Origin: a virus
Direction: 5' to 3' (one strand)
DNA: 25,936 nucleotides
Virus record (IMG/VR): IMGVR_UViG_3300032278_000103
Coordinates: 1 to 25,936 of that record
A program made the position numbers and the translations under genes. Positions 3,381 to 13,473 of the stretch are shown piece after piece (positions within the stretch are counted from its first letter, which is position 1; every line of letters begins with the position of its first letter). The notes under the pieces were generated by a model. The model was not told the DNA's origin, ran no database searches, and saw only the letters and a list, made by a program, of their open reading frames with translations.

Positions 3381-4661
3381 ATGGGTTTTGATAGTTTAGG
3401 GCGTTATACGCCCGGTCACAAATCTTGGGATCATGTAGGAAATATGATTCCAGTTGTTGAGCACTCCGAGGGTGTTCGTCCACATGGGGAATTCAAGCCA
3501 GCAGCTTGGCTTCCAGTACAGTTCTTCGATAAGTATTACGAAGAACACTTTGTGGTCCTACCCGGAAAAGTGCTTGCTTTTGATAATGATGGAAGGGTGG
3601 TTCCTGCGGGAGTCGCCTCTGGAACAAACATTGTTTACACCGCTCTTGATGTAACTGCAGGTGTAATTGATGTTACTACTGGAGTGGCTGTTACGGCAGC
3701 TGTAACTCATGCAGTAGCTGATATTGATGGTTCTACTAAACATTTTTTGGGTAGAAGTGGAACCGCTCTTACGGTTAGTAAGCCTGTTGGCGTAGCACCT
3801 TATGCTATGTGGCAATGGGCAGGTGATGGTAGCTCTTTGGATGACGGATCCAATCCGGCTGCTTATCGCAATCACAATCACAATTTGCAACATCAAGTTG
3901 CAATTCTTTGTGATTATGTTTTGGAACTGCCTTTGGTTCCAGCAAATGCAACTGCAGAAAGTGCTGTCTTCGGGTCTTATACCGCAGGCACGGATCTTCT
4001 TGTTTTAGCTGCTTTAAGTAATGCTGGTTCTTTGGCTGCTGATACTCAGCGTACAAGAGTCACTTTTGCTGGAGCAGTAGCTGCAACAGGTGCTTTGTTT
4101 GTAACAAGAGTTGATACTCTTGCAGAAGCTGATTCAGAAGGTAAATGGCACTTGGATCAAACGACAGGGGTTATCACTCTGTTTACTGCTACAACTGTTG
4201 CCGCTGGTGATGTTAATGGTGGTGATTTAACTGTTAGTTATTATCACTATGCTTCGGCAGCTGCTTCGGTGGGTGCTTTTGCATGTGCAACAGGCAACCT
4301 GAAAGCAGGTGACTTTGTTAAGTGTGATGCAAACTCTAACTTTGTACTTGCCAATCCTGAGCCATCAGTCGCAGCTGATGTTGATGGGGCTAATACCGTA
4401 TTACTACGGACTAATATCGGTGATACTTTCGCTGATATTGTTGGTCAGGTTATTGAAGTAGAGAGTGCAGCAAAAGATGCATTGGATAAAGTACGTACTG
4501 CGTACAATCCAGCCCTTGGTACTGATTCCAGCGGTAGCCTTCCCGGTTACGCAGGTCAAATGGATCAGATGCCAGGTTCCGCAACGGGCGGCGTTTCAGA
4601 TAAAGTTCATTACGCAGGTGCTGCAGACTTAGTTGTCCGCATCAACCTGGTATCAAGATAA
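3381..4661 (+). CDS. Probable capsid decoration / head structural protein
   Basis: A 426-aa protein with a strong SD (AAGGAGG, 3365-3371, overlapping the previous stop) located directly between protease/scaffold and major capsid genes. The N-terminal part has the phrase VVLPGKVLAFDNDGRVVPAG, a small beta-barrel pattern ('lp.G.vv..d..G.lvpa') common in capsid stabilisation and decoration proteins. The middle is Ala/Val/Thr/Gly-rich and looks all-beta. It includes WHLDQTTGVITLFTATTVAA and a tyrosine-rich strand. A second 'GDFVKCDANSNFVLA' element repeats the barrel pattern, followed by a Gly/Ser-rich C-terminus. No catalytic motif or signal peptide is visible. The composition and position fit an abundant surface protein of the head; the exact role is inferred. 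It could instead be a head fibre. Confidence 0.55.
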   Translation: MGFDSLGRYTPGHKSWDHVGNMIPVVEHSEGVRPHGEFKPAAWLPVQFFDKYYEEHFVVLPGKVLAFDNDGRVVPAGVASGTNIVYTALDVTAGVIDVTTGVAVTAAVTHAVADIDGSTKHFLGRSGTALTVSKPVGVAPYAMWQWAGDGSSLDDGSNPAAYRNHNHNLQHQVAILCDYVLELPLVPANATAESAVFGSYTAGTDLLVLAALSNAGSLAADTQRTRVTFAGAVAATGALFVTRVDTLAEADSEGKWHLDQTTGVITLFTATTVAAGDVNGGDLTVSYYHYASAAASVGAFACATGNLKAGDFVKCDANSNFVLANPEPSVAADVDGANTVLLRTNIGDTFADIVGQVIEVESAAKDALDKVRTAYNPALGTDSSGSLPGYAGQMDQMPGSATGGVSDKVHYAGAADLVVRINLVSR

Positions 4662-4677
4662 GGAGGAATTGAATATG
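4660..4677 (+). promoter_or_regulatory. Strong ribosome binding site fixing the capsid start
   Basis: AAGGAGG (4660-4666) overlaps the stop of the preceding gene and lies 8 bases from ATG 4675. It shows that the capsid gene starts here rather than at an in-frame ATG at 4633 inside the upstream gene. The 15 bases AAGGAGGAATTGAAT are repeated identically before the sheath gene. Confidence 0.85.
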
Positions 4678-5883
4678 TCTATAGAAATTAAAGACGCAAG
4701 CCAATTTGAGTACCTTTGGAAAAACAATGGTAGTCTTCAAAGTGGCGAACGTGTAAAATTAAATGATGCTCTTTCGGTTCCTAACGCGCCAATGCTAATG
4801 CCTAAGGTCATTAGTAATATCGTTAAGGAAGCTGCAGAGCCTCTATTAGTAGGTAGTAGCCTACTCCAAAGAATTAATTATTCTTATGGTCAAACTATTA
4901 CTTTCCCTGCTGTTGGGGCACTCGTTGCTGCTGACATTGCGGAAGGTCAAGAATATCCAGAGCGTAGCCTCCAGATGGGTGGAAGCACGGTCACTGCAAC
5001 GATTGGGAAGTCGGGTGTTGCTGTTAAAGTAACTGACGAAATGGTCCGATACTCCCAATTTGACGTGATCGGTATGCATCTCCGTGCAGCTGGTCGGGCT
5101 CTTGCTCGTCATAAAGAAGTTAAGATTTTTAACTTCATTCGAAGTATGGGTGTCACTTGTTTCGACAATGTCACTCCTGCTTCATCTCTTAAAGGCGTCA
5201 CGACGGGTCGTGATATTGCTGGAGCAGGGAATGGTTCTGTAACCATGGATGATATCTTTGATGCTTATGCACAAGTTATCACTCAGGGTTTCACTCCCAA
5301 TACCCTTCTCATGCATCCTCTGACCTGGACGATGTTCGTTAAGGATGCCACCTTGCGTTCCTTTGTTTTAGGAAATAATGGTGGAAACTGGTTTGCAGGT
5401 CATTCGGGTAATCCTGCTGGACAAGCTCCTTGGGGCGGTGGCCTCGGAGTGTCCGGCGGTCAGGATATTACTCCCGGAGGTAATGCTGCGGGTGCGACTG
5501 CTAGTCCATTGAGTGCTTATCCCCAGACACTCAATTCTGCACCTCAATTGCCAGGATATATGAATATACCATTTAGGATCATTGTAAGTCCATTTGTGCC
5601 TTACGATCCTAGACGTAAGCTTACTGACATTTACATGTTTGATTCGGCTGAGCTCGGTGTTCTCATCGTTGATGAAGAAGTCACCACTGAAGAGTTCGAT
5701 GATCCGCGTGTAGATATTCGCAAGATCAAGCTCCGTGAGCGATACGGTATTGGTATCCTTAATGAAGGTAAGGCCATTGCAACATTGAAGAATGTTCATG
5801 TTGTGCCTAATGAGATTGTTACCCCGGCTCAGGCTACTATTAATAACTTGAGTGCGATTGGTGCAACCTCTAATGTTCTTTAA
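4675..5883 (+). CDS. Major capsid protein (HK97 fold)
   Basis: A 402-aa protein, the usual size for an HK97-fold capsid subunit. It begins with an N-arm (MSIEIKDASQFEYLW). The segment LMPKVISNIVKEAAEP then opens the fold; GQTITFPAVGALVAADIAEGQ is typical of the E-loop/P-domain entry; and ATIGKSGVAVKVTDEMVRYS followed by a long helix (VIGMHLRAAGRALARHKEVKIFNFI) corresponds to the spine helix. The region around 245-290 is Gly/Ala/Pro-rich (A-domain loop). The C-terminal part includes the conserved-looking RKIKLRERYGIGILNEGKAI, a common capsid ending motif. The strong SD and the terminator right after the gene suit the most abundant virion protein. The acidic scaffold upstream probably directs its assembly. 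There is no long N-terminal delta domain, consistent with the scaffold being a separate gene. Confidence 0.88.
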   Translation: MSIEIKDASQFEYLWKNNGSLQSGERVKLNDALSVPNAPMLMPKVISNIVKEAAEPLLVGSSLLQRINYSYGQTITFPAVGALVAADIAEGQEYPERSLQMGGSTVTATIGKSGVAVKVTDEMVRYSQFDVIGMHLRAAGRALARHKEVKIFNFIRSMGVTCFDNVTPASSLKGVTTGRDIAGAGNGSVTMDDIFDAYAQVITQGFTPNTLLMHPLTWTMFVKDATLRSFVLGNNGGNWFAGHSGNPAGQAPWGGGLGVSGGQDITPGGNAAGATASPLSAYPQTLNSAPQLPGYMNIPFRIIVSPFVPYDPRRKLTDIYMFDSAELGVLIVDEEVTTEEFDDPRVDIRKIKLRERYGIGILNEGKAIATLKNVHVVPNEIVTPAQATINNLSAIGATSNVL

Positions 5884-5923: not shown

Positions 5924-5956
5924 AGAGGGGGGCGCAATGCCCCCCTCTTTTTTTTT
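5924..5956 (+). terminator. Strong intrinsic terminator after the capsid gene
   Basis: AGAGGGGGGC (5924-5933) is perfectly complementary to GCCCCCCTCT (5939-5948), with the 5-base loop GCAAT, followed by eight more Ts to 5956. The GC-rich 10-bp stem plus U tract is a textbook rho-independent terminator. It would cap the capsid message and reduce transcription into the neck and tail genes. Confidence 0.93.
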
Positions 5957-11260: not shown

Positions 11261-11938
11261 ATGGCAGCAGATAACAGTGTAAATTTAAGAGGAGCTGGAG
11301 TAAACAACCAAGGGTATAATAGTTTTTCCGGTGTAGATATTAAAGCAGTTTTCGGAGCTGAGGTTATCGGAGAACTGCAGGCAATTTCGTATAGTATAAG
11401 TAGGGAAAAAGCACCACTTTATACTATGGGATCTGCCGATTGCAGAGCTTACTCTAGAGGTAAGCGAGGTATTGCAGGAACATTGATTTTTTTGATGTTT
11501 GATAGGCATGCCTTTTTGGGACATTTTGGAGTAACTAGACCTACTGGTCAGACTGGTAGCATTGAGAATTACAAGCCTTATTTGGATCCAGATGAAAAAT
11601 CTTATGGTCTTTCTACGGAAGGTGTGAAGCTTACTACTCCTTTAGCAAGTACAGCAGCTTTGACATATGATGGGGCTGAAACACCTACGGATATGAACGG
11701 TCTTGTTTCTAAAGAAACAGCTTTCTTTTCTGACCAGGTGTTGCCCTTTGATGTCACACTTGCAGCAGCAAATGAATATGGAGCTTTAGCAATTATGAGG
11801 ATTTACGGATGTGAAATTCTTAATGAAGGTTATGGCGTCTCTATTGATGATATCGTTTCTGAACAACAGATGAGTTATGTAGCTAGAACTTTAGCTCCAT
11901 GGCAATCATTGGATAGAAATGGCAGTGATGAGCCTTAG
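11261..11938 (+). CDS. Tail tube-like protein, paralogue 1
   Basis: 225 aa, SD AGGAGG (11250-11255) before ATG 11261, immediately after the sheath gene, the classic place of the tube gene. Conserved with its neighbours are LQAISYSISREKAPLYTMGS (39-58), AYSRGKRGIAGTLIF (63-77), DQVLPFDVTLAAANEYG (158-174) and MRIYGCEILNEGYGVSIDDI (179-198). The closing segment resembles a 'SieDi..e....yvA.d..P' ending. All-beta composition suits a tube ring. Being first after the sheath, it is the best candidate for the main tube protein; the neighbouring paralogues may be adaptors. Confidence 0.65.
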   Translation: MAADNSVNLRGAGVNNQGYNSFSGVDIKAVFGAEVIGELQAISYSISREKAPLYTMGSADCRAYSRGKRGIAGTLIFLMFDRHAFLGHFGVTRPTGQTGSIENYKPYLDPDEKSYGLSTEGVKLTTPLASTAALTYDGAETPTDMNGLVSKETAFFSDQVLPFDVTLAAANEYGALAIMRIYGCEILNEGYGVSIDDIVSEQQMSYVARTLAPWQSLDRNGSDEP

Positions 11939-11981
11939 TAAGATCATCAGTGTAATCATTTTTGATAAATAATAATAAGAT

Positions 11982-12019
11982 AAGGAGCCTAGCGGATTTG
12001 TCCGCTAGGCACTTCTTCT
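11982..12019 (+). promoter_or_regulatory. SD separated from its start codon by a perfect hairpin
   Basis: AAGGAG (11982-11987) is 32 bases from ATG 12020. Between them GCCTAGCGGA (11987-11996) pairs perfectly with TCCGCTAGGC (12001-12010) around the loop TTTG. Folding removes the stem and leaves ACTTCTTCT, 9 bases, as the effective spacer, equal to that of other genes here. AAGGA could also pair with TTCTT (12013-12017) across a 2-base bulge, which would hide the SD instead. There is no T tract, so it does not look like a terminator. Hairpin-bridged SDs are known from T4 genes 25 and 38. Confidence 0.65.
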
Positions 12020-12742
12020 ATGGTAAAAAATAATAACAACGAAAGTCAGCCTCATGTAAGGAAAGTGTTGGATTGGTCTAAGTCCACCTATTCAGGGACA
12101 GATGTCAGTGTAATAGCTACTCTTAACTTTGGTATTCTTGAGAAAAGATTTTTTAGGAAAGAATATAGAGTGGGAGCCTCTCAGGAAGAGGAAAAAAAGC
12201 TGAAGGGACTCGCTTATGAGCTGGGGACTGTTCAGACCATATCATGTCAGGCTCATAGACCAAAAGCTCCAGTTAGAGCCATGGGGAATGTTCAAGCCCG
12301 TGGGTATACTCGAGGTCCAAGAACTATTGCTGGTTCTATGATTTTCACTGTACTTAATCAGCACTCCTTAAGAGAATTAACTCGTGAGATGGAGAAGATT
12401 ATCTATGATATAGAAAAACCTCAAGTTGTAATGCTTGCAGACCAGATACTTCCTGTTGATCTAACTTTTCTTTTTGCAAATGAACATAACAATATTTCTA
12501 GAATGGCTCTTTATGGTGTGGAATTCATGAATAGTGGTCAGACAATGAGTATTGAGGATCTTCTTCTTGAAGAGGTTGTTCAATTTGTAGCTCTTGATAT
12601 GGATCCAATGTCTGATGCTACAGAGGTTATCAGGCAAGGCGGAAGTAAAGGGCAAGTGACGTCAGGAAGCATGTTGCTCAAACAAGACTTTTCCACATAT
12701 CAAAAATTACTTGAAAGAGCAGGAATAAGGAGGAATTATTAG
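12020..12742 (+). CDS. Tail tube-like protein, paralogue 2
   Basis: 240 aa. Shares with the preceding protein: PKAPVRAMGN (81-90) against KAPLYTMGS, YTRGPRTIAGSMIF (96-109) against YSRGKRGIAGTLIF, DQILPVDLTFLFANE (141-155) and MALYGVEFMNSGQTMSIEDL (162-181). It has an N-terminal extension of about 65 residues, rich in Asn and charged residues, and a C-terminal ~45-residue tail, so it is a modified tube-fold protein, perhaps a tube initiator, tail completion or baseplate-proximal ring. Initiation depends on the hairpin-bridged SD. The stop overlaps the next GTG by one base (TAGTG). Confidence 0.6.
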   Translation: MVKNNNNESQPHVRKVLDWSKSTYSGTDVSVIATLNFGILEKRFFRKEYRVGASQEEEKKLKGLAYELGTVQTISCQAHRPKAPVRAMGNVQARGYTRGPRTIAGSMIFTVLNQHSLRELTREMEKIIYDIEKPQVVMLADQILPVDLTFLFANEHNNISRMALYGVEFMNSGQTMSIEDLLLEEVVQFVALDMDPMSDATEVIRQGGSKGQVTSGSMLLKQDFSTYQKLLERAGIRRNY

Positions 12743-13473
12743 TGGCTTACACTCCATCAGAATTAGATCTTCTTTCCTCTAGTCGAGATCTGGATACTTT
12801 TGAATATAATTTAGATTACTTTAGTGGAGCTCAAGCAGCTGTTTATATTGAAAATGTTCTTGTAGATGAAGTAACTAGTTTGCAATGGACAGTACAGCAA
12901 TCTAAAATTCCAATATACGGTTATGCTTCTCAAACTTTTGACGAGATGGCTAATGGAACAATAATTGTTCAAGGTAGTTTTAGCATTAACTTCACTCACT
13001 CTGGATATCTGTGGTCTATACTTAAAAATCGACATAATCCAACAGTATTCAACGCAAATAAAAAACTTGTTGATGAATTAACATATCTGAATGTGCGAGA
13101 TAGAGTGCAATCTCAAGACACAAAGGCAGCGAAAGATAGAGTTGATGAAATTGAGTCGTATATGCTTTTGTTAAATGAAGTACGAGATAATAACGTTACA
13201 ACAGGTAATGTTACTAAGCAGATAAATGATGTGGTTTGGGGACCTGATAATAGTGAAAAAAGAGCTGACATGGGTTTTGGTCATGAGTTAAGAACTGATA
13301 GAAGAATTTTAAATGGATTCGATATCTATTTGGAATTTAAGCACGATGGTTCAGAAATAGCAACTGTTCGTAAAATTGAAAATGTGCATTTAATTGGAAA
13401 AGGACAGACTGTTGTGATAGATGAAAATCCAGTACAAGAAGTCTATTCTTTTTATGCAAAAAATGTTATATGA
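12742..13473 (+). CDS. Tail tube-like protein, paralogue 3 (virion structural)
   Basis: 243 aa, GTG 12742 with AAGGAGG (12727-12733) 8 bases upstream inside the previous gene. VTSLQWTVQQSKIPIYGYAS (44-63) then NGTIIVQGSFSINF (71-84) aligns in spacing with the LQAIS..KAPLY..GIAGTLIF part of the first tube paralogue, suggesting the same beta fold. A helical insertion follows (about 95-175). The C-terminal part has FDIYLEFKHD and VHLIGKGQTVVIDENPVQEVYSFYAKNV, resembling the closing strands of tube-like virion proteins. Probable ring at a tube end, or an additional tail protein; more divergent than the other two. Confidence 0.55.
   Translation: MAYTPSELDLLSSSRDLDTFEYNLDYFSGAQAAVYIENVLVDEVTSLQWTVQQSKIPIYGYASQTFDEMANGTIIVQGSFSINFTHSGYLWSILKNRHNPTVFNANKKLVDELTYLNVRDRVQSQDTKAAKDRVDEIESYMLLLNEVRDNNVTTGNVTKQINDVVWGPDNSEKRADMGFGHELRTDRRILNGFDIYLEFKHDGSEIATVRKIENVHLIGKGQTVVIDENPVQEVYSFYAKNVI

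Follow-up and report, generated by a model that had tools for sequence, protein, structure and literature searches.

A probable hairpin-bridged Shine-Dalgarno site before the second tail-tube-like gene of an uncultivated contractile-tailed phage

The window analyzed here, 25,936 bases of an uncultivated virus (IMG/VR virus record IMGVR_UViG_3300032278_000103), has a hairpin between two paralogous tail-tube-like genes (hereafter, tube1 and tube2) that directly adjoins a Shine-Dalgarno (SD) sequence. On the sequence evidence, we consider this element likely to be a split (accommodated) ribosome-binding site (RBS), with the hairpin looped out and ATG 12020 as the start of tube2. In the proposed mechanism, the hairpin at 11987-12010 would remain folded during pairing of the 30S subunit with UAAGGA(G) (11981-11987), and ATG 12020 would then be 9 nt from the SD and not 33 nt. 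The bridge was probably derived from a hairpin that the phage group has between tube1 and tube2, and that would end, attenuate or protect the tube1 mRNA.

In the window lies a module of structural genes from a large phage with a contractile tail. Besides the capsid and sheath genes (Table 1), it comprises tube1 and tube2, one more gene related to them and two that are very long. The nearest named phages by protein are Moorella phage MTATph1, Bacillus phage vB_BauM_KLEB27-3 and Acinetobacter phage ME3. Tube1 matches phrog_9206 (1.2e-42), its KLEB27-3 homologue is annotated as tail tube, and tube1 and tube2 are 37% identical in alignment, indicating that they are paralogues. Sequence search found no solved structure. 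An AF2 model of tube1 (61 sequences; pLDDT 69) had phage tail tube, Hcp and related injection-system chains as its best matches, with middling Z scores of up to 7.0. The best Foldseek E value was only 0.025, and the tube fold thus rests on Z of about 7 together with gene order. The prediction for tube2, made from four sequences (pLDDT 36), was of no use. The initial annotation's description of tube2 as a second tube gene is therefore moderately supported, through its paralogy with tube1, the predicted fold of the latter, the KLEB27-3 annotation and the gene order behind the sheath gene. In phage G, two tube candidates likewise lie behind the sheath gene (PMC8570332).

Some observations concern the annotation of this module. 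A third, more distant tube relative (12742-13473; phrog_9206, 1.4e-7) follows tube2 with a stop/start overlap and a strong plain SD. The label of PHROG 9206, "major head protein", is probably an annotation error for the tube-like proteins at 11261-13473, and has probably passed into the MTATph1 and ME3 records. The capsid ORF is listed from TTG 4633, but judging by the strong SD TAAGGAGGA its real start would be ATG 4675 (codon 15). In MTATph1 (L002), a gene annotated as S-adenosylmethionine decarboxylase (4642-4998) is inserted between tube1 and tube2, right behind the junction hairpin.

Table 1 Features of the window that bear on the start of tube2.
Feature	Position	Strand	Remarks
Major capsid gene	window		basis: PF25209
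Tail sheath gene	window		basis: phrog_16991
tube1, first tail-tube-like gene	11261-11938	+	ORF, 225 aa; stop TAG 11936-11938
5' halves of the extension, AGA 11978-11980 and AGG 11983-11985	11978-11985	+	paired in the minimum free energy (MFE) fold
Shine-Dalgarno UAAGGAG	11981-11987	+	final G doubles as first stem base
Hairpin 5' arm GCCTAGCGGA	11987-11996	+	core -18.2 kcal/mol
Hairpin loop TTTG	11997-12000	+	4 nt
Hairpin 3' arm TCCGCTAGGC	12001-12010	+	perfect 10-bp stem with the 5' arm
Effective spacer ACTTCTTCT	12011-12019	+	9 nt; poor U-tract, terminator score -24.6
tube2, second tube-like gene	12020-12742	+	240 aa; ATG start
Alternative start, AAGGA 12058-12062 before TTG 12068 (codon 17)	12058-12070	+	SD -5.1 kcal/mol, spacing 4

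The anatomy of the site agrees with the initial annotation, which had placed the only SD 32 bases upstream of ATG 12020 and had the excess filled exactly by a perfect stem. The distance to ATG 12020 is 33 nt from AAGGA and 32 nt from AAGGAG (11982-11987), the hairpin takes up 24 nt, and the remainder is 9 nt; a detail previously glossed over is that AAGGAG and the stem overlap in one base, G 11987. The SD therefore lies beyond normal spacing, and none of -5 kcal/mol or better was found 3-13 nt from ATG 12020 (best, -2.4), in a window where most genes have an SD and strong SDs are common. With the stable hairpin in between, the anti-SD duplex of UAAGGAG (-7.0 kcal/mol, including the stem-base G) is left at a normal effective spacing. 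Translational coupling from the tube1 stop was also considered, and judged unlikely at 81 nt upstream.

Such a stem is rarely formed by chance. Perfect stems of at least 10 bp with loops of 3-8 nt occur three times in the 25.9-kb window (mean 0 over 10 window shuffles), and shuffling the 81-nt gap produced one in 3 of 5000 trials and the complete bridged layout in 3 of 3000. For the window alone, shuffling the leader gave p = 0.016 for an SD at the stem base, and the junction fold had z = -3.55. No Rfam covariance model matched the window at gathering score, and blastn of the junction against phages returned no match.

Initiation at TTG 12068, which would make the bridged SD irrelevant, was weighed as well, as this codon has an SD of usable strength and spacing (Table 1). 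TTG is weak as a start, however, and the bridged layout would then have to be a coincidence; moreover, the near relative L005, whose sole nearby start is the upstream ATG, shares KxLD(W/Y) in the stretch encoded around the TTG. We thus consider TTG 12068 less likely than ATG 12020 and, taken by itself, highly improbable.

The hairpin can be extended at its base in a way that hides the SD, as the initial annotation had proposed, although its AAGGA:TTCTT register was off: in the MFE structure AGG 11983-11985 pairs with CUU 12012-12014 and AGA 11978-11980 with UCU 12017-12019. This extension is worth -4.1 kcal/mol over the hairpin core and leaves the SD bases 11983-11985 with unpaired probabilities of 0.05, 0.01 and 0.15; the partial pairing of the SD counts against bridging. 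It had also been suggested that the element is a switch, in which temperature, a protein or tube1 ribosome traffic opens the extension and thereby sets the tube1:tube2 ratio. The pairing of the SD bases fits this idea, but the SD:anti-SD duplex is stronger than this modest extension, no comparable 3+3-bp extension was seen in L005, and the overall accessibility of the SD (mean 0.44 unpaired) is ordinary, falling within the interquartile range of the plain SDs of relatives (0.33-0.59). We see no sign of regulated switching, nor of a ligand or trigger, and regard a switch as very unlikely; the extension may instead tune the strength of the site.

Scans of viral contigs and genomes yielded 136 distinct tube1|tube2 junctions, 125 of them with a usable start. 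These relatives were found by querying with the sheath, with tube1 and with alignments; tube2 as a single-protein query gave none. Because they are metagenomic contigs with unknown hosts, their anti-SD sequences were assumed. Among junctions of 30-150 nt, a hairpin of -8 kcal/mol or better is present at 104 of 117 tube1|tube2 junctions, versus 49 of 194 other junctions of the same loci (Fisher 1e-29, uncorrected for relatedness), and the hairpin is therefore a feature of the whole phage group. The tube1|tube2 gap is also longer (median 68 nt, versus 12 at other junctions). A plain SD lies downstream of the strong hairpin at 63 of 108 junctions, and the hairpin was probably in the first place a 3'-end or attenuation element of tube1.

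The scans turned up just two phages closely related to the window, L005 and L007. Both have the stem, and one of the two (L005) the bridged layout. The three stems share no sequence, indicating that the hairpin is conserved and not its letters; the stems of L005 and L007 have no alignable sequence in common, which precluded a count of classical covariation in the window stem. One A-U to G-C double change was seen in the stem of the L039/L042/L044 clade. In two sister phages, L036 (6673-6746) and L034 (6667-6735), SD-like sequences (AAGGAGG and AAAAGGGGG) are placed within the loop and 3' arm of the junction hairpin, where they are apparently sequestered.

To be counted as bridged, a junction had to have an SD at the hairpin's 5' base, no usable SD after it and a start codon at most 13 nt from the stem; these thresholds were chosen following an initial inspection of the junctions. 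On this definition the window, L005, L036, L037, L039, L041, L044 and L101 are bridged, and looser criteria add L042 and L136. L005 reads AAAGGA, TCCCCCAGCAG-TTAATT-CTGCTGGGGGA, ATACCAAT and ATG, i.e., the layout of the window with an unrelated stem; its tube2 ATG is 8 nt past the complete stem and no other start codon is nearby. L037 has AAAGGAGG, a hairpin of about 14 bp, AGCTTTAA and ATG. L036, L041, L044 and L101 are weaker cases, with effective spacings of 11-14 nt among them; L036 has a second SD inside the hairpin, and the leader of L101 is too short for the shuffle test.

The bridged layout is concentrated where a plain SD is absent. Of the 20 short-tail junctions lacking one, 8 have an SD at the hairpin base, compared with 3 among the other 88 junctions (Fisher 4e-5); the eight bridged cases are non-independent, and collapsing them to about five lineages gives p of about 0.003. 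Shuffling restricted to the leader 5' of the hairpin gave the appearance of bridging at 2.8 +/- 1.2 of the 20 junctions, and eight were never reached in 300 trials. The SDs of bridged leaders all sit 0-9 nt from the stem base, with none further upstream. On the tube1 tree the bridged state requires about seven changes, at least five of which are forced by well-supported branches. The window clade of three has two bridged members (the window and L005) and one with a plain SD downstream of its hairpin (L007), so bridging is not required of tube2. Plain SDs are also found in its sister rows L019 and L021, and in L208, which is related to the L037 clade and has a U-tract as well. The initial annotation would have given up the bridge had related phages combined a plain SD with the lack of a stem, and half of that combination is seen, as the stem is present in almost all of them and a plain SD in most, including L007. 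Given the shared layout in L005, the recurrence in other lineages and the enrichment where a plain SD is absent, the proposal of a hairpin-bridged SD is supported.

The hairpin could instead do no more than form the 3' end of the tube1 message, as a weak terminator, an attenuator or an exonuclease barrier, with the SD left over or there by chance and tube2 weakly translated from an A/U-rich leader. Its conservation (104 of 117) whatever the position of the SD is consistent with this, as are the hairpin junctions with neither a plain nor a bridged SD. About half of the non-bridged hairpins (47 of 99) score as terminators, versus none of nine bridged ones (p = 0.005), on a d'Aubenton-Carafa type score; scores in relatives reach +38 among the values listed. 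A terminator scan with a looser pattern does list the window's junction hairpin. The U-tract that should follow a GC-rich hairpin in an intrinsic terminator is lacking there, however, and its negative score compares with 75.8 for the terminator behind the capsid gene of the same genome. In a phage with many strong SDs, a 7-nt SD that coincides with the stem base and leaves 9 nt to the ATG is also unlikely to be accidental by the leader shuffle, and we judge a role confined to the 3' end to be unlikely. The capsid-gene terminator (5925-5947) is a strong one and consists of a 9-bp GC-rich stem and T9 directly after the major capsid gene, and a plain SD for gene 5976 lies downstream of it.

A reading that overlaps with the split RBS is that the hairpin does both, trimming tube2 mRNA by partial termination or 3' processing and bridging the SD on read-through messages. 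The conserved hairpin and the bridged SD do share the same 24 nt, but good U-tracts are absent from the bridged hairpins and termination would therefore be inefficient, leaving such a dual role rather improbable, though less so than a 3'-end role by itself. For the split RBS, we tentatively suggest an evolutionary route that is possible but short of an even chance: in this group of large myophages, the conserved hairpin at the end of tube1 may have started out terminator-like, with the SD behind it, and have become the bridge of a split RBS on several occasions, so that transcriptional control of the paralogue ratio gave way to translational control.

Hairpin-bridged RBSs are documented for few genes, namely T4 genes 25 and 38 and E. 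coli thrS (cases in PMC3014915 and PMC3936740). The junctions described here would extend this to a second group of phages, where the bridged layout recurs beside relatives with ordinary sites. The window and L005 versus L007, and the L037 clade versus L208, are natural before/after pairs for how ribosomes handle a folded spacer, and the layout shows gene finders why tube2 appears to be SD-less.

In T4 gene 25, at the 26-25 junction, a stem cuts the SD-AUG distance from 27 to 11 nt (Nivinskas 1999; Malys and Nivinskas 2009, reviewed in PMC3014915), and in gene 38 from 22 to 5 nt (PMC3014915). For both, the geometry was shown by mutation, reporters and DMS probing, and stem mutation lowers initiation (PMC3014915). 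Likeness to these genes is the best reading of the tube2 site, backed by its layout, recurrence and enrichment, and the change from 33 to 9 nt fits. As in gene 25, a tail gene has an SD that is too far away, a stem between SD and AUG, and this arrangement in only a subset of related phages; the phage group, the gene and the distances differ, the tube2 case is known from its sequence, and the position of its hairpin is conserved group-wide, where elsewhere in the group it is often terminator-like. Gene 38 similarly has its spacing shortened through a stem, but it is a tail-fibre gene of unrelated sequence. In E. coli thrS the ribosome accommodates a folded hairpin between the two parts of the binding site (Sacerdot et al., discussed in PMC3936740), as proposed here, although that hairpin is part of a larger multi-domain leader. 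Finally, the tube2 element resembles the intrinsic terminators that follow highly expressed structural genes in phages, such as that at 5925-5947, in being a GC-rich hairpin downstream of a gene for an abundant protein, and differs from them in its lack of a U-tract and in having the SD upstream, not downstream, of the hairpin.
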